From contig JAFXMP010000189.1 of assembly GCA_017530275.1 (NCBI GenBank), positions 1-23,677 on the forward strand: a stretch of 23,677 nucleotides of DNA, in the 5' to 3' direction. Of this stretch, positions 3,597 through 23,677 are shown in pieces (the first letter of the stretch is position 1; every line of letters begins with the position of its first letter). The position numbers and the translations under genes were made by a program. The notes beneath the pieces are model-generated. The model ran no database searches. It was not told where the DNA came from and saw nothing but the letters and a program-made list of their open reading frames with translations. Source of the DNA: Clostridia bacterium (GTDB lineage Bacteria; Bacillota_A; Clostridia; Christensenellales; Aristaeellaceae).

Positions 3597-3639
3597 TTGC
3601 GTCAGTCAGCAAAGAAAGTATGGATGGAGGGTGTCTGCC

Positions 3640-4140
3640 ATGAAAAAAGCATCCTTTGCTTTCTGTTTCTGATGCTGTGGACAGGTTCAGCATTTGCGGA
3701 AAGCACCATCACCAGCATCGAATTTTTGCCTATGACCGGCGGCAGATGGAGCTGTCCATCGAAAACGGGCAGACGGGCGTTCATCTGCTGGAAGAGACCC
3801 TGAACGAAACGATGAAGGTGGCCGTGGGCATTTCCCCTGTTTCCAAAATCCCTGATCTAACCGGCAAAATCAACCGTTTTATCGCGGAACTGCGGGCCGA
3901 CGGCACCCTGGATGATATGTTACCGCGGGGTCTTAAAGGCCGATGAAACCATGCCGGACATTCCCTTGGCGGACCCCCTCGGTTCATCTGACTGTTGGCA
4001 CTTCCGGCATCGTGCCGCCCTACAGCTACTATGCAGGAAAAAAACTGAACGGCTACGACATTGAACTGGCTTATCGTTTCGCTGCCTGGCAGGGGACGGA
4101 TGTTCAATTCAAGGTTTACGATTACGGCTTCATCGTTCCC
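3640..4140 (+). pseudogene. Tandem solute-binding (SBP_bac_3-type) protein, multiply frameshifted remnant
   Basis: ATG 3640 follows GGAGGG (3626-3631). In the starting frame only MKKASFAFCF is made before TGA, but adding one base to the A6 run after ATG would give MKKSILCFLFLMLWTGSAFA, a clean signal peptide. Homology then hops frames: VGISPVSKIPDLTGKINRF and IAELRADGTLDDM (end of one binding domain), RGVLKADETMPDIPLADP in a second frame, and LTVGTSGIVPPYSYYAGKKL plus NGYDIELAYRFAAW in a third (start of a second domain). Most of the first domain is missing right after the signal peptide. The remnant ends near 4140 where it meets the stump of an opposite-strand gene. Family resemblance is to amino-acid ABC-type periplasmic binding domains in tandem. 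Clearly non-functional. Confidence 0.7.
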
Positions 4141-4141
4141 G

Positions 4142-4196
4142 CCGCCAGCAGGTCCAGATAGCTTTTCGCATGCTGAATGATCTGACGCTTGTTCAT
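4142..4196 (-). pseudogene. 5' stump of a truncated minus-strand gene
   Basis: On the minus strand ATG 4196-4194 has AAAGGGA 5 bases upstream. It starts MNKRQIIQHAKSYLDLLAAG, a regular amphipathic helix like the N terminus of a real gene, then runs into the reverse complement of the solute-binding pseudogene and stops at TAA soon after. I infer that a deletion joined the two genes near 4140. The parent family is not recognised with confidence; the start resembles small conserved Clostridia proteins of unknown function. Confidence 0.4.
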
Positions 4197-4253
4197 GATT
4201 ATTCCCTTTCATGCGTGTTGCGCATTTCTATAAGTATGAATGCATGGTACAGA

Positions 4254-5063
4254 TCAATCCCTCCGCCGTAGCTGCCAGAAGGCTACGGCGGCGGCCGCCG
4301 CCACATTCAGAGAGTCGATCCCGGCGGTCATGGGGATTTTGACGATGTGGTCGCACTGGCAGATGGTTTCTTCGGTAAGCCCCGTATCCTCCGTACCCAG
4401 GGCGATCACCAGCTTGGGGAGGCAGCGCAGCAGGGGATCGTCTAACGACAAACAATTGTCCCGCAGGGCCAGACCGGCGATTTGGAAGCCGACGGCTTTC
4501 AGGGGCGTCAGGTCAGCGTTTTCCAGCCTTGCCCACGGTATTTGAAATATTGCGCCCATGCACACCCGCACGGCCCGGCGATGCAGTGGATCGCAGCAGG
4601 TGGGGGAGAGCAGCACCGCATCCGCCCCCAATGCGGCGGCGGAACGGAAAATCGCGCCTACGTTGGACGGCTCTGTGATCCCTTCCAGCAGCGCCACCCG
4701 CCGCGCGCCCTGGATCACAGTTTCCAGCGGTTGAGGTTTCGGGCGACGCATGGCGCACAGCACCCAGGAGCGCTGCAGGCGGAAGCCAGTAAGCTCCGCC
4801 AGTGAATCGTCATCGCTCGTGTAAACAGGAACATCCCCGCAGCGGCGGATAATCTCCGCCCCCAGCCCATCCACGAATTTGCGGCGCATGAGCAGCGCCA
4901 CCGGCACGCAACCCGCGTCCAGCGCGGCGTGGGTCACCCTGGGCCCCTCGGCGATAAAAACGCCCTTTTCCGGCTCCTGCCTGCTGCGCAGCTGCGCGTC
5001 GGTCAATTGGCTGAACAGGGCCGTTTCCGGGGCGGATAAATCCTGGATTTCTATAACGGGCAT
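4254..5063 (-). CDS. TrmH/SpoU-family RNA 2'-O-methyltransferase
   Basis: 269 residues. Such enzymes methylate ribose 2'-OH in rRNA or tRNA using S-adenosylmethionine through a knotted SPOUT fold. All three SpoU motifs are visible: motif 1 EGITEPSNVGAIFRSAAAL (127-145, with the Asn134 and Arg140 positions), motif 2 ALGTEDTGL (221-229) and motif 3 IPMTAGIDSLNVAAAAAV (243-260). The N terminus (FIAEGPRVTHAALDAG) matches the small substrate-binding domain, so length and layout fit 23S rRNA-type members. ATG 5063 has a GGAGGGGGG site 8 bases upstream. It stands alone with its own promoter (5128-5156). The exact target nucleotide cannot be read from sequence. The 3' end faces the degraded region, and I see no obvious terminator. 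Confidence 0.88.
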   Translation of the reverse strand: MPVIEIQDLSAPETALFSQLTDAQLRSRQEPEKGVFIAEGPRVTHAALDAGCVPVALLMRRKFVDGLGAEIIRRCGDVPVYTSDDDSLAELTGFRLQRSWVLCAMRRPKPQPLETVIQGARRVALLEGITEPSNVGAIFRSAAALGADAVLLSPTCCDPLHRRAVRVCMGAIFQIPWARLENADLTPLKAVGFQIAGLALRDNCLSLDDPLLRCLPKLVIALGTEDTGLTEETICQCDHIVKIPMTAGIDSLNVAAAAAVAFWQLRRRD

Positions 5064-5127
5064 AGGCGCATCCCCCCTCCCGCCGCTTTCTGGGCTTGCG
5101 CAAAGAAAACGGCGAAATAATGGCTTT

Positions 5128-5156
5128 ATTATATCGCAAGGCTAAAGCACGTGCAA
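5128..5156 (-). promoter_or_regulatory. Likely sigma-A promoter of the TrmH-family gene
   Basis: Read on the minus strand: TTGCAC (5156-5151), a 17-base spacer, and a perfect TATAAT (5133-5128). This would start RNA near 5121, leaving a leader of about 58 bases. The -35 box matches only three positions. Confidence 0.5.
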
Positions 5157-5227
5157 GTAAAACCAAAGGTAAGGTACATGGATGAAAACAGGCCAATATT
5201 GTATACAAAATTTTTTAATTTTTCCTC

Positions 5228-5256
5228 TTGCTTTTTTTGCGGTTTGGGTGTAATAT
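5228..5256 (+). promoter_or_regulatory. Likely promoter of tRNA-Thr
   Basis: TTGCTT (5228-5233), a 17-base spacer and TAATAT (5251-5256) end about 20 bases before the tRNA, a usual distance. A T-rich tract lies between the boxes. Confidence 0.5.
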
Positions 5257-5277
5257 ATCACCGTTGCCCCGCTTGAT

Positions 5278-5353
<76 letters not shown>

Positions 5354-5356
5354 GTG

Positions 5357-5383
5357 AAACCAGTCAGAAATGGCTGGTTTTTT
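5357..5383 (+). terminator. Rho-independent terminator after tRNA-Thr
   Basis: AAACCAG (5357-5363) pairs with CTGGTTT (5374-5380), followed by more T to 5383, three bases after the encoded CCA. Confidence 0.75.
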
Positions 5384-5484
5384 CGTGCTTTTGGACATTT
5401 TTGGGCGTTTTGATACAGCTTCTGGTTCGGAATCGTACATCTCATCTTTTCGCTCTGTCCGTTTTCGTCAGTAAGTTCGTCAAC

Positions 5485-5679
5485 TGCCCCTCCCGGAAAC
5501 CCTTGTATGAGGATTGGAATGCCTTGATTGACGAAAGAGGTTGGATGGAGATTGAAGACCCACTGCCAGGTTGTCAGCATGACGCTTTTATTCCTATTCG
5601 AGTGAAAGACAGGAATATCGGAAAACCTGAATGGGGAAGGCATGAAGTCCTGATTGACGGCAAGTGGAAGGATTATTAA
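5485..5679 (+). pseudogene. Probable C-terminal remnant of an unidentified gene
   Basis: The frame ending at TAA 5677-5679 reads like real protein in its second half (KPLYEDWNALIDERGWMEIE, later WGRHEVLIDGKWKDY), with mixed, hydrophilic composition and sensible codons. Upstream of about 5485 the frame is poor, and no ribosome binding site precedes any start. I read it as the tail of a gene whose front was lost, lying between the tRNA terminator and the small-peptide promoter. The family is not recognised, and it could be chance. Confidence 0.3.
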
Positions 5680-5722
5680 CCCGTATAGTGGATGCGTTCA
5701 AAAGGGCATTCAAGAATTTTAA

Positions 5723-5751
5723 TTGACATCATAGATTTTCATTCGTATAAT
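5723..5751 (+). promoter_or_regulatory. Perfect consensus sigma-A promoter of the double-glycine peptide gene
   Basis: TTGACA (5723-5728), exactly 17 bases, then TATAAT (5746-5751): twelve of twelve consensus positions at the ideal spacing, in AT-rich DNA. The expected RNA start near 5758 leaves about 29 bases before ATG 5787. Confidence 0.85.
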
Positions 5752-5786
5752 AAATTAGATCATAATTTGGAAAGCGAGGAATGAAT

Positions 5787-5990
5787 ATGGATAAAATGCC
5801 CTTGGAAGGCAAAGACCTTAACCACGTAACAGGAGGTATACATCTGCGGGAAGATGATGTCAAATGCCCATATTGCGAAATCAAATTACCTAAGTCAATG
5901 CTGGTCAGTCACATTAAGAGTGTTCATCCAGATAAAATAGAAGAAGACGACGAAGAAGAAGGAGGCACAATAGTAAACATTATGTGGTAA
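5787..5990 (+). CDS. Double-glycine-leader peptide with C2H2 zinc-finger-like core (putative bacteriocin/RiPP-like precursor)
   Basis: 67 residues. ATG 5787 is preferred: GAGGA (5776-5780) is 6 bases upstream, whereas the in-frame ATG 5781 touches it. Residues 6-17 read LEGKDLNHVTGG and fit the class II bacteriocin leader consensus LSxxELxxIxGG (Leu -12, Asp -8, Leu -7, Val -4, Gly -2, Gly -1), the signal cut and exported by peptidase-containing ABC transporters. The 50-residue core holds Cys27-x2-Cys30-x11-His42-x4-His47, a C2H2 zinc-finger spacing, then an acidic run (52-58), a second Gly-Gly (59-60) and a hydrophobic end TIVNIMW. No transporter, immunity or modifying gene is adjacent. The leader match is observed; secretion, zinc binding and antimicrobial or signalling action are inferred. 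It could instead be an intracellular mini zinc-finger protein. Confidence 0.7.
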   Translation: MDKMPLEGKDLNHVTGGIHLREDDVKCPYCEIKLPKSMLVSHIKSVHPDKIEEDDEEEGGTIVNIMW

Positions 5991-6187
5991 ATACCGTATT
6001 TGACAGGTTTCCCTTGAAAGCGTCTTTCCAGCGGATGGAAACAGAAATCCCCAAAGTGCTTTGTGAGCGAAGGATTCTCTCCCTTCATCTTTCCTTTGCG
6101 CTCACGTCTCAATTTCGGGCACGTTTGTTCCCATCCGTTTCCTTTCCCCATAAACTTTTGCATTGAACCAAGAAGAATAATGAATTG
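5991..6187. other. Non-coding 3' region of the peptide gene with an imperfect hairpin
   Basis: I see no convincing gene here. GTGAGCGAAGG (6063-6073) is the imperfect inverse of CCTTTGCGCTCAC (6093-6105), a hairpin with about a 19-base loop. Open frames here lack ribosome binding sites and have low-complexity Phe/Ser/Leu composition. The peptide mRNA probably continues through this stretch to the terminator at 6188. Confidence 0.4.
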
Positions 6188-6219
6188 CGGGAACTGCGTT
6201 TGCGGTTCCCGTTCTTTTT
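6188..6219 (+). terminator. Rho-independent terminator downstream of the peptide gene
   Basis: CGGGAAC (6188-6194) pairs with GTTCCCG (6205-6211) around a short loop, followed by TTCTTTTT. Confidence 0.75.
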
Positions 6220-6280
6220 GTTTTGAGCATACGCATTGATTATTCGGGCTTCCGTTGGTACTGCGATTACTGTTTATCAG

Positions 6281-6310
6281 TAGACATTAAGGGACAATAT
6301 GTGATATAAT
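6281..6310 (+). promoter_or_regulatory. Promoter upstream of the exopolysaccharide sugar transferase
   Basis: TAGACA (6281-6286), 18 bases, then perfect TATAAT (6305-6310). It follows the terminator at 6219 and is the only clear promoter before the gene at 6508, implying a leader of about 190 bases. Confidence 0.6.
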
Positions 6311-6336
6311 CATCATTGTTAGGAGTTACCTATCAT

Positions 6337-6459
6337 TTGCTGACATTTCCTCCAAATCTTCAGTTGAGGCGGAAAATATCCAAGATTGAAGAGATTTATG
6401 GAGAGAAAGGCATTTACTCCATCTGGTACCGAAAAGACTTTATGGCGCACAATCAATAG
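6337..6459 (+). CDS. Short ORF or gene remnant in the leader of the sugar transferase
   Basis: The frame is open from just after the TAA inside TATAAT (6307-6309) to TAG 6457-6459. AGGAG (6321-6325) lies 11 bases before a TTG at 6337, which would give 40 residues. The end reads KIEEIYGEKGIYSIWYRKDF, protein-like composition that suggests a genuine tail. It could be a translated leader peptide, a complete small protein, or the C-terminal remnant of a lost gene. I do not recognise it. A second short frame (ATG 6398 to TGA 6511) overlaps it and ends over the start codon of the next gene. Confidence 0.3.
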   Translation: MLTFPPNLQLRRKISKIEEIYGEKGIYSIWYRKDFMAHNQ

Positions 6460-6507
6460 GTCCTGCCGCTTGAACCAAAGGATTCAGGGAGAGGAAAACA
6501 TACTCGC

Positions 6508-7956
6508 ATGATACGCAAGAATCAGGAATTCCTGAACCGGCTTAATCAATTGGGAGATATTCTTCTGGTCATCGGCTGTTACGCGTTTGCCTCCTGGTTC
6601 TGGCTTGTGGCAAAGGAAGGCGACGCTACTAACATGGCTATGATCAGCGGAAAATCATTGCTGATCTCCCTGGTCTATGCGTCCGCGCAGTCGGTTCTCT
6701 TTATGTTTTTAGGGTTTTACAGTACAACGCGCACCAAGCGCATGTCCTGGAAACTTGGTATTATTGCCTTTGGAACAACGGCTACTGTACTGTCTTCCAC
6801 TTTTCTTTTGTATTTATTTCGCCTGCATGATTTTTCCCGCGGCGTGCTGTTTATTTTCTATGGATCGACACTGACGCTGCTCAGCTTGAAATACTTCCTG
6901 ATGGAGTTCATGCTCCGGGAACTGCGCAAGCGCGGTTACAACATCAAGCATGAGGTTGTGATCGGGACAGGAAAAGTAGCCCAGTATTATTCGGCAAGTG
7001 TGAAAAGCGAGCAGGAATTGGGGCTGAATATTATTGGCTTTATTGGTCCCAGAAACATCATGCGGCCGTTGGGCGGCTATGAAAAGCTGGATCAGGTCCT
7101 TGCCAGATTGGATGTTGATGAAGTGATCATCGCGCTTGAACCGGAAGAGTATGGGAAGATTCGGGACATGATTGCCGCCTGTGATAAAAACGGCGTCAAG
7201 TATTACATTCTCCCGTTCTATAACGACATAATCCCTGAGCATCCCGCAATAGAAAACGTGGGCGGCTGCAAGCTCATCAACATGCGTTCGAACCGGCTGG
7301 AAATCGTCGGCTGGGGACTGCTGAAAAGAACGTTTGACATTGTGGTAAGCCTGCTTGGATTGGTGATCCTAAGCCCCCTTATGGCGTTTGTAGCGATTGG
7401 GGTCAAGCTCTCCAGTCCTGGCCCCATATTATTCAAACAGATGCGGATCGGCTATAAGCGCCAGTCCTTCACCATGCTGAAGTTTCGCAGTATGCGGATC
7501 AATGATGAGGAGAATACGGCATGGTCGAAAAAGATGGATAATCGAAGGACATGGTTTGGAAGCTTCATCCGCCGCTGCAGTATCGATGAATTTCCGCAGT
7601 TCATAAACGTATTAAGGGGCGATATGAGCCTGGTAGGACCACGGCCAGAGCTGCCCTTCTTTGTGGAGCAGTTCAAAGAAAAGATCCCTTTGTACATGGT
7701 CAAACATCAGGTCAAGCCCGGCATTACCGGTTGGGCGCAGGTCAATGGCCTGCGGGGAGATACCAATATTGAGGAACGGGTGAAATACGATCTTTGGTAC
7801 ATTGAGAATTGGTCGGTTGGATTGGACTTGAAGATTATCTTCAAAACGGTTTTCGGGGGTATGATGAACAAGGAGGCCCCGATTGACCGCAAGCATCCGC
7901 GCCAGTCCGCATCCGAAGAACACCAGGAGGAAAAGGAACGATCCGCTGCGCAGTGA
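6508..7956 (+). CDS. Exopolysaccharide polyprenyl-phosphate sugar-1-phosphate transferase (WcaJ/WbaP type)
   Basis: 482 residues. Enzymes of this family move a sugar-1-phosphate, often glucose or galactose, from a UDP-sugar to undecaprenyl phosphate at the inner membrane face, starting capsule or exopolysaccharide repeat units. Four hydrophobic segments occupy about residues 16-135, followed by a Rossmann-like domain beginning VVIGTGKVAQYY (150-161). The catalytic module follows: KRTFDIVVSLLGLVILSP (273-290, re-entrant helix), SSPGPILFKQMRIG, SIDEFPQFINVLRGDMS with Asp360-Glu361, VGPRPE (376-381) and KPGITGWAQVNGLRGDT. Length is normal. ATG 6508 has GGGAGAGG about 14 bases upstream, a rather long gap. 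No other polysaccharide gene is adjacent. The donor sugar cannot be told from sequence. Confidence 0.9.
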   Translation: MIRKNQEFLNRLNQLGDILLVIGCYAFASWFWLVAKEGDATNMAMISGKSLLISLVYASAQSVLFMFLGFYSTTRTKRMSWKLGIIAFGTTATVLSSTFLLYLFRLHDFSRGVLFIFYGSTLTLLSLKYFLMEFMLRELRKRGYNIKHEVVIGTGKVAQYYSASVKSEQELGLNIIGFIGPRNIMRPLGGYEKLDQVLARLDVDEVIIALEPEEYGKIRDMIAACDKNGVKYYILPFYNDIIPEHPAIENVGGCKLINMRSNRLEIVGWGLLKRTFDIVVSLLGLVILSPLMAFVAIGVKLSSPGPILFKQMRIGYKRQSFTMLKFRSMRINDEENTAWSKKMDNRRTWFGSFIRRCSIDEFPQFINVLRGDMSLVGPRPELPFFVEQFKEKIPLYMVKHQVKPGITGWAQVNGLRGDTNIEERVKYDLWYIENWSVGLDLKIIFKTVFGGMMNKEAPIDRKHPRQSASEEHQEEKERSAAQ

Positions 7957-22442: not shown

Positions 22443-23677
22443 AAGAAGCTTCTACCCCTACCCGGCCAAAGCCAAGGAATCCAAGGAGATTGAGCCTTCG
22501 ACAATGACACCCAGAGAAACGAGGAGCTTCACGGCATCTTTTGCGGAAGCAAGCGTCATTTTCTTCTTGAGTTCTTCGGGCAAATCGTACTTCTGGAGAT
22601 CAGAAGGGTTGAAGACTTCTCCAGAAGAAAGCATGGCGTAAATGGAAGTCAGGATCATGCGAGCGATAGCAATGATAGCGCGTTTCTTCCCACGGCGTTT
22701 CATGATGTGCTCGTACTTGATTCTGAAATAAGGCTGCTTTTCGGTAGATTTCACCGCCGCGTGTGCTGCCTCAACCAAAGCGGGTTTCAGGTAGACTCCG
22801 GCACGGGAAATCTTTACGGATTTCTTCTTGCCAGCGGATTGGTTGTTGTCAGGCGTCAGACCGGCCCAACTGCAAAGACGCCTGGCAGAGCCGAATTCCG
22901 ACATATTGGTACCGATTTCCGAGAGAATCGTTATAGCGAGACGGCGATCCACTCCGGGAATTGTACATAGGAGGGAAATGGTTCCTTCGTAATCAGAGGC
23001 AAGATTGCTGACAATGTCATCAATCTGGCCGATTCGCTTGTCAATATCCGCGAAGTGTCCCTGAACGATACGAACTCTTTCCTTCTGTTCCGGGGTCATA
23101 TTGAAACCTTCAACCGCTTCAATGACAGCGTCTGCTTTCTTCATCATGGAACGATGGAGAAGCGAAACACAGTAATTGGGGTCTACGGTTTCTGTATCCA
23201 GCAGATAGTTCTCGATAGCCGTAGCAGACTTCCCGAACATGTCGGAAACGACGGCATCCAACGTCAGGTTGCACACAGTGAAAGCATTCTGAAAACGATT
23301 CTTTTCACTGGAACGCATGGATACCAGTTTGCTCCGATAACGGGTACATTCCCGAAGAATCCTGATGTCCTTTACGGGAATGTAGCTGCCGGGGACGAGT
23401 CCCATACGGAACAGATTGCCGATCCACTTGGAATCCTTCTTGTCGTCCTTGTTGCCCTTGACAGCGGAAACCCATTTGGGATTCGCGATGACAACATGAA
23501 CGAAACCTTCAAGGGCATTCCAAACGGGAACCCAATACTTGCCGGTACTTTCCATACAGACATCCTTACAATTGTTGTCAAGGAGCCACTGCCTGAAAGC
23601 AATCAGGTTTCTGTAGGAAGTGCCGAAGTGTTTCTGCTTACACTGGGGAATCAGATAATCCCCCATAAGGATTGTGG
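22443..23677 (-). mobile_element. IS110-family insertion sequence, one end inside the window
   Basis: Defined by the DEDD transposase frame and the abrupt loss of the small ORF to its left. IS110 elements have no clear terminal inverted repeats, so the exact end is not readable. If the bridge RNA is coded upstream of the transposase, as in the IS110 subgroup, it lies beyond the right edge. Confidence 0.7.
22458..23677 (-). CDS. IS110-family transposase (partial, 5' end beyond window)
   Basis: At least 405 residues; the frame is still open at the right edge, so the N terminus (about 30-45 residues with the first catalytic Asp) is missing, and Met 23666 is internal. IS110 enzymes are RuvC-like DEDD recombinases guided by a bridge RNA from the element's own non-coding end. 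Seen here: CKDVCMESTGKYWVPVWNAL with the catalytic Glu, KGNKDDKKDSKWIGNLF with the later Asp pair, then a long coiled region, then the Tnp/IS116 domain with LLCTIPGVDRRLAITILSEI, RLCSWAGLTPDNNQSAGKKK (serine of the active site) and ARMILTSIYAML. It is a complete-looking copy apart from the window edge. The element's near end lies between 22443 and 22457 or slightly left. Confidence 0.92.
   Translation of the reverse strand, partial: TILMGDYLIPQCKQKHFGTSYRNLIAFRQWLLDNNCKDVCMESTGKYWVPVWNALEGFVHVVIANPKWVSAVKGNKDDKKDSKWIGNLFRMGLVPGSYIPVKDIRILRECTRYRSKLVSMRSSEKNRFQNAFTVCNLTLDAVVSDMFGKSATAIENYLLDTETVDPNYCVSLLHRSMMKKADAVIEAVEGFNMTPEQKERVRIVQGHFADIDKRIGQIDDIVSNLASDYEGTISLLCTIPGVDRRLAITILSEIGTNMSEFGSARRLCSWAGLTPDNNQSAGKKKSVKISRAGVYLKPALVEAAHAAVKSTEKQPYFRIKYEHIMKRRGKKRAIIAIARMILTSIYAMLSSGEVFNPSDLQKYDLPEELKKKMTLASAKDAVKLLVSLGVIVEGSISLDSLALAG

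Follow-up and report, generated by a model that had tools for sequence, protein, structure and literature searches.

A small clostridial gene pairs a double-glycine leader with a predicted zinc-finger-like core

Results

A double-glycine leader precedes a C2H2 unit

The contig of a rumen Clostridia bacterium analyzed here (JAFXMP010000189.1, 23,677 nucleotides, called the window throughout) holds a small gene whose 67-residue product joins a double-glycine (GG) leader to a Cys-x2-Cys-x11-His-x4-His unit, just as the original prediction from this DNA had described. The pairing is a real feature of the open reading frame (ORF), and our best reading places the peptide, as one with a C2H2 core, in an unnamed group of clostridial peptides that combine GG leaders with predicted metal-binding cores. 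The ATG at 5787, 7 nt past a GAGG, is preferred as start codon over the ATG at 5781 (Table 1). The leader carries L-12, D-8, L-7, V-4, G-2 and G-1, in agreement with a rule of L-12, E/D-8, L-7, a hydrophobic residue at -4, G-2 and G/A/S-1. The excerpted text of PMC6363468 gives L-12, E-8 and L-7 as the consensus and V-4, L-7 and L-12 as the C39 groove residues; the window peptide has L-12, L-7, V-4 and both glycines, with D in place of the consensus E at -8. The putative ligands C27, C30, H42 and H47 agree with a general C-x2-C ... H-x3-5-H pattern.

Table 1. Features of the peptide gene and its flanks, in window coordinates
Feature	Position	Strand	Basis and remarks
Sigma-70-type promoter TTGACA-17-TATAAT, 12/12	5723..5751	+	Promoter search, shuffles
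Ribosome-binding-like GCGAGGA	5774..5780	+	Read from the sequence
GG-leader zinc-finger peptide gene, 67 aa	5787..5990	+	ORF listing, translation, protein search
Double-glycine leader, 17 aa, MDKMPLEGKDLNHVTGG	5787..5837	+	Sequence; leader positions per the excerpted text of PMC6363468; same design among the chosen rows of profile A3
Core, 50 aa, predicted mature form	5838..5987	+	Computed composition; pI 4.8, 12 D/E vs 6 K/R
C-x2-C-x11-H-x4-H unit, residues 27-47	5865..5927	+	Retained in P0001 and P0002; AlphaFold model
Terminator-like hairpin, 11 pairs + T run	6187..6212	+	Sequence; begins 196 nt after the stop; assignment to the peptide gene uncertain
tRNA-Thr(GGT)	5278..5353	+	ARAGORN, Rfam RF00005; upstream flank, outside the peptide gene's function

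Chance was gauged in 80 related loci, where 22 of 6214 small ORFs carried a C2H2/C2HC pattern, none had a strict GG leader and none had both; a shuffled core retained the C2H2 pattern in 641 of 200000 trials. Under a looser GG rule, these same loci, which are RNase J loci of 1.28 Mb in all, yielded seven GG-like ORFs, one of which (L069) looks real and has a C-x2-H/C-x2-C core.

Close relatives keep both halves of the design. A search of 5.8 billion proteins returned two relatives only, P0001 and P0002, 88 and 77% identical to the window peptide and standing for 10 member sequences on 4 contigs and 3 sequences on 1 contig, respectively. The original prediction had turned on whether homologues share the GG leader and the C2H2 ligands, and both do, so that the four ligands are conserved in 3/3 sequences; no relative without the GG leader was found in this database, within the reach of a search that sees only proteins sharing 5-residue words. 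No close match occurred in 29 genomes of the genus or 308 of the family; since most of these are assembled from metagenomes, parts may be missing, and an empty result is no evidence by itself. Pattern scans of genome and viral contigs (A1) confirmed no close relative. The A1 profile gave weak matches in 14 of 30 near genomes (E 0.19-0.96).

The AlphaFold model of the window peptide has a block-mean predicted local distance difference test (pLDDT) score of 76-83 for residues 21-50, with two 2-residue bridges and a helix at 36-46, and the modelled core appears finger-like. Its PDB matches are weak, and many of them are C2H2/UBZ fingers. With such fingers (zf-C2H2, zf-Di19, RAD18 UBZ) the peptide has in common the ligand order, the x11 spacing of the RAD18 UBZ chain and the finger-like predicted core; unlike them, it falls under the Pfam cut-offs (zf-Di19, 23.3 against 27.5; zf-C2H2, 12.8 against 25.2) and bears an export-type leader. 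A further protein, P0057, has a GG leader followed by two C2H2 fingers and scores 36.1 bits for zf-C2H2_4 (cut-off 27); modelled from its sequence alone, it gives a poor structure (mean pLDDT 51.7) that is finger-like at 53-76 only.

Related designs recur in other Clostridia, mostly with C4 motifs

The window together with loci L081-L253 contained 46 distinct peptides with a GG leader and a metal-type motif, namely 41 C4, 3 C2HC and 2 C2H2, the window's own included; these proportions are biased because the loci were chosen largely via profiles containing CPxC. One locus, L184, supplies 16 of the peptides, and several others recur almost unchanged from genome to genome. The count rests on one regular-expression filter, which retained a GG ORF when it was small and had a ribosome-binding-like site, and which overlooks some peptides (the GG ORF of L124, for instance, is absent from the L214 list). 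The picture of an exported GG zinc-finger peptide is corrected here: the leader and the finger-like core stand, and export is likely as judged from sequence, but the peptide is part of a wider, mostly C4 set.

This set emerged from successive profiles. A1 gave three matches in the family search, two of them small genes, one with a GG leader and a C2HC motif (L127) and one with a GG leader and a C4 ribbon (L128). With these two peptides added (A2), 45 of the 308 family genomes matched at E <= 0.1, many as noise. A3, built from 15 chosen rows, matched 71 database proteins at E <= 1; 32 of the 37 examined combine a GG leader with one or more CxxC, and the other five lack either the GG (P0060, P0062) or the CxxC (P0063, P0066, P0068). 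When A3 was run across the order (matches in 78 of 396 genomes, E <= 0.001), many matches were discarded as zinc ribbons inside longer frames.

GG-leader ORFs with CxxC knuckles often form tandem series: L180, L181 and L182 have four apiece, and L183 has five. L184 (G193:C171, 1-6468) is a 6.5 kb contig with twenty same-strand tandem GG ORFs, each with at least one CxxC, whose leaders are almost constant and whose cores vary. A class-level draw of 391 genomes gave GG + C4 ORFs, which need not be kin to the window peptide, in L255, L256, L258 and L260; the leaders in L256 and L258 are Nif11-like, under the cut-off. No GG peptide was found in L129, L257, L259, L261 or L262.

Separately, an alkyl-sulfatase-type metallo-beta-lactamase gene adjoins the GG-peptide genes in L181, L182 and L192. 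GG leaders of similar kind also precede a LysM domain (PF01476, 46.5 bits) at L198:5432-5662 (-), a C39 locus, and a bacterial SH3 domain (PF08239, 41.2 bits) at L230:1501-1788 (+). From these two cases, GG leaders may serve as an export signal for small folded domains in general.

Some class members adjoin C39 exporters

No C39 match was found in the window, and a Pfam scan of 17 window proteins showed neither a C39 exporter nor a radical SAM protein. The original prediction had looked to nearby peptidase-containing transporters, and this link appears among some class members rather than in the window: a C39 gene lies in 3 of the 16 regions picked by peptide profiles (L180, L183 and L246; the other 13 are without), against 0.065 expected by a Poisson estimate. 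The estimate is rough, its C39 density being taken from other genomes and L180-L182 being like loci. It leaves out L190 and L191, whose C39 genes were already known, as well as L195 and L251-L253; the latter three have no GG+metal peptide, and C39 was not found in them. In L180 the C39 gene is ~9 kb away from the peptide array.

In L183 (genome G218), five GG+C4 peptides are followed by a TIGR03796/TIGR03797 ATP-binding cassette (ABC) pair, both over cut-off. In L246 (G385), the minus strand reads in order HlyD-like protein, C39 ABC protein, second ABC protein, ECF sigma factor, GG+C2HC peptide, GG+C2H2 peptide, additional GG peptides and, last, a gene for a radical SAM/SPASM enzyme. Scores there are 41.1 bits for TIGR03794 (below cut-off), 918.5 for TIGR03796 (cut-off 853.3) and 724.6 for TIGR03797/ABC2 (cut-off 709.4). 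The GG+C2H2 peptide of this locus, C-x2-C-x11-H-x3-H, has the window's x11 spacing; the exporter upstream of it, encoded on the same strand, is of NHLM type with a C39 peptidase.

Of 30 relative genomes, 17 have C39 matches above the cut-off, among them the two nearest, and in 16 the match is a strong full domain. G002 scores 894.0 for TIGR03796, over cut-off, with the partner just below (691.5 vs 709.4). Conversely, loci picked by C39 (22 of 24; 293 kb) contained eight GG ORFs, of which one has two CxxC and at least two look spurious.

Two further C39 loci were seen in passing. At L191:8032-8681 (+), GG peptides with repeated C-x-C lie beside a C39 ABC gene, a second ABC gene and a radical SAM gene; this is probably a locus for ribosomally synthesized and post-translationally modified peptides (RiPPs). 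At L089:1501-1605 (also L190; genome G024), directly upstream of a C39 exporter, a GG-like ORF has an internal TAG ahead of a C4-type stretch, and L218 holds an uninterrupted relative of it.

Promoter, terminator and neighborhood

The original prediction had inferred heavy, independent expression from a perfect promoter and a dedicated terminator. TTGACA-17-TATAAT is indeed the sole exact match within the window (0 in 100 shuffles), but heavy expression stays a prediction, and the promoter, though strong, is neither unique nor extraordinary: in the 80 related loci, a 12/12 promoter lies no more than 75 bp from 6 of 738 genes, and it is not special because 42 of 738 have one of 11/12 or better within 300 bp. 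The terminator is not clearly a dedicated one, since the hairpin starts 196 nt beyond the stop codon.

An Rfam scan of 4900-6700 matched nothing besides the tRNA. The window's RNase J shares 98% identity with its counterparts in two metagenome-assembled genomes, G001 (goat reticulum) and G002 (red deer), labelled Clostridia and Christensenellaceae. The segment around the tRNA-Thr (5193-5388) matches G001 at 95% identity and G002 at 94%, but its neighbors in those genomes are others, namely a cggR-like gene and another small gene (names by eye). That the tRNA-Thr flanks vary between genomes might hint at an island, an idea not adopted here. Elsewhere in the window, an HD-CE domain gene (PF24391; 1636-3596, +) continues into lactate-permease sequence, the permease profile being divided over two overlapping ORFs; overlapping short ORFs at 3597-4212 (+) look by eye like a broken solute-binding protein gene, one piece having no Pfam match; and an IS110-type transposase (PF02371, PF01548) lies at 22458-23666 (-).

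Discussion

GG-leader exporters are usually regarded as carrying flexible bacteriocins, pheromones and RiPPs. Within the known GG-leader exported peptides, a metal-folded core, as predicted from sequence, would set the window peptide apart. We consider it fairly probable that the gene encodes an orphan GG-leader precursor that is cleaved by a C39 peptidase and exported, and whose C2H2 core folds around zinc and likely acts on neighboring cells. An exporter of the NHLM/PCAT (peptidase-containing ABC transporter) type, coded elsewhere in the genome, would recognize the 17-residue leader through its C39 peptidase and cut after Gly17 of the Gly-Gly pair, and the 50-residue core would be exported. 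Outside the cell, the core would bind one zinc through Cys27, Cys30, His42 and His47 to form a small finger, the metal serving as a staple where other secreted peptides rely on disulfides; for an anaerobe living in the reducing rumen, this would be fitting. If substrates pass unfolded, as we infer, metal binding before export would need to be weak or prevented. The ORF, its leader and ligands, the relatives and the linkage of some class members to exporters are observed; export, cleavage and zinc binding are predictions; action on neighboring cells is a first guess, drawn mainly from the company the class keeps.

The peptide can be compared with several described systems. Like class II bacteriocins and other PCAT (C39) GG peptides, it is a small precursor with L-12, D/E-8, L-7, V-4, G-2 and G-1; unlike them, it has an acidic core with a C2H2 metal-type unit, and its window lacks a C39 exporter. 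NHLM systems (TIGR03796/TIGR03797/TIGR03794 with NHLP/Nif11 precursors) resemble it in that some of its relatives adjoin such transporters and in keeping the leader while the cores vary; hypervariable cores behind a conserved leader are what the consulted portion of Haft et al. 2010 (PMC2887384) describes for NHLPs. They differ in that the window peptide's leader is short (17 aa) and its core metal-type; the NHLP (TIGR03793) and Nif11 (TIGR03798) leader models matched neither the window peptide nor P0001 or P0002.

No GG-leader zinc-finger peptide turned up among the papers listed in literature searches, and among the peptides scanned no NCBIfam or Pfam model unites a GG leader with a metal-type core. 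For the window peptide, NCBIfam gave nothing at E <= 1, and the 11 Pfam hits at E <= 1 include no leader family. The original prediction knew of no described class with a zinc-finger-like core, and the papers listed brought up none with a GG leader; precursors with a metal site do have a precedent, because type II pamtides, small RiPP precursors modified by a methyltransferase, carry a DnaJ-type zinc ribbon according to the sections of PMC10787088 consulted. Those sections describe precursors found via a neighboring methyltransferase and a conserved Asp, whereas in the window a GG leader is followed by a C2H2 unit, and the terms 'double-glycine' and 'C39' are absent from the main text of that paper. 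The pamtide motif given there, CxxCxGxG-D-CxxCxGxG, is absent from the window peptide, and the only methylase among the 17 scanned window proteins is a SpoU RNA methylase.

A narrower function may be considered, in which the exported finger is a bacteriocin-like antagonist, killing relatives or inhibiting them, and an immunity gene is located elsewhere. The GG leader, the link of class members to NHLM exporters and the resemblance of variable tandem arrays such as L184, with its 20 GG ORFs, to toxin sets all favor this, but the core is acidic (pI 4.8), and we regard antagonism as rather unlikely.

Modification in trans is a further possibility: the core may be a RiPP substrate of a radical SAM or other maturase, its Cys/His pattern then being not, or not solely, a metal site. 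A radical SAM/SPASM gene in L246 and a radical SAM gene in L191 speak for this, and the type II pamtides, in the portion of PMC10787088 noted above, offer a precedent for a modified zinc ribbon. The absence of a radical SAM protein among the scanned window proteins, the conservation of the four-ligand finger spacing in 3/3 sequences and a P0057 score beyond the C2H2 Pfam cut-off make this improbable. We similarly doubt that the peptide is a secreted zinc carrier or scavenger: A3 cores that otherwise differ have the metal-type motif in common (the rows were chosen for it), but a single site per 50 residues would make a poor store, and the 17 scanned window proteins include no zinc-uptake protein.

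Finally, the product could be an intracellular zinc-finger protein whose GG arose by chance. Two observations weigh against our exported, zinc-folded precursor and toward this alternative, namely that the gene is an orphan with no exporter near and that the top Pfam and PDB matches are intracellular fingers; sequence by itself would not separate an extracellular from a cytosolic role. We nevertheless think a chance GG quite unlikely, given that GG, L-12 and L-7 are retained in both database relatives, that comparable leaders stand ahead of C4, LysM and SH3 cores, and that the control ORFs contained no strict GG leader.

A broader proposal can be made, to which we give slightly less than even credence: gut Clostridia may secrete whole families of metal-folded miniproteins by the GG-leader/NHLM route. 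Tandem arrays with as many as 20 genes would have diversified them, zinc (or iron) would take over the stapling role of disulfides, and the window gene may be a single-gene C2H2 branch of this undescribed class. Complete zinc-finger or zinc-ribbon cores behind GG leaders, in variable arrays that at times adjoin the exporters, would make secreted metal-folded miniproteins a class to be added to the known ones, and would offer a simple answer to how a secreted miniprotein might fold without disulfides in an anaerobe.
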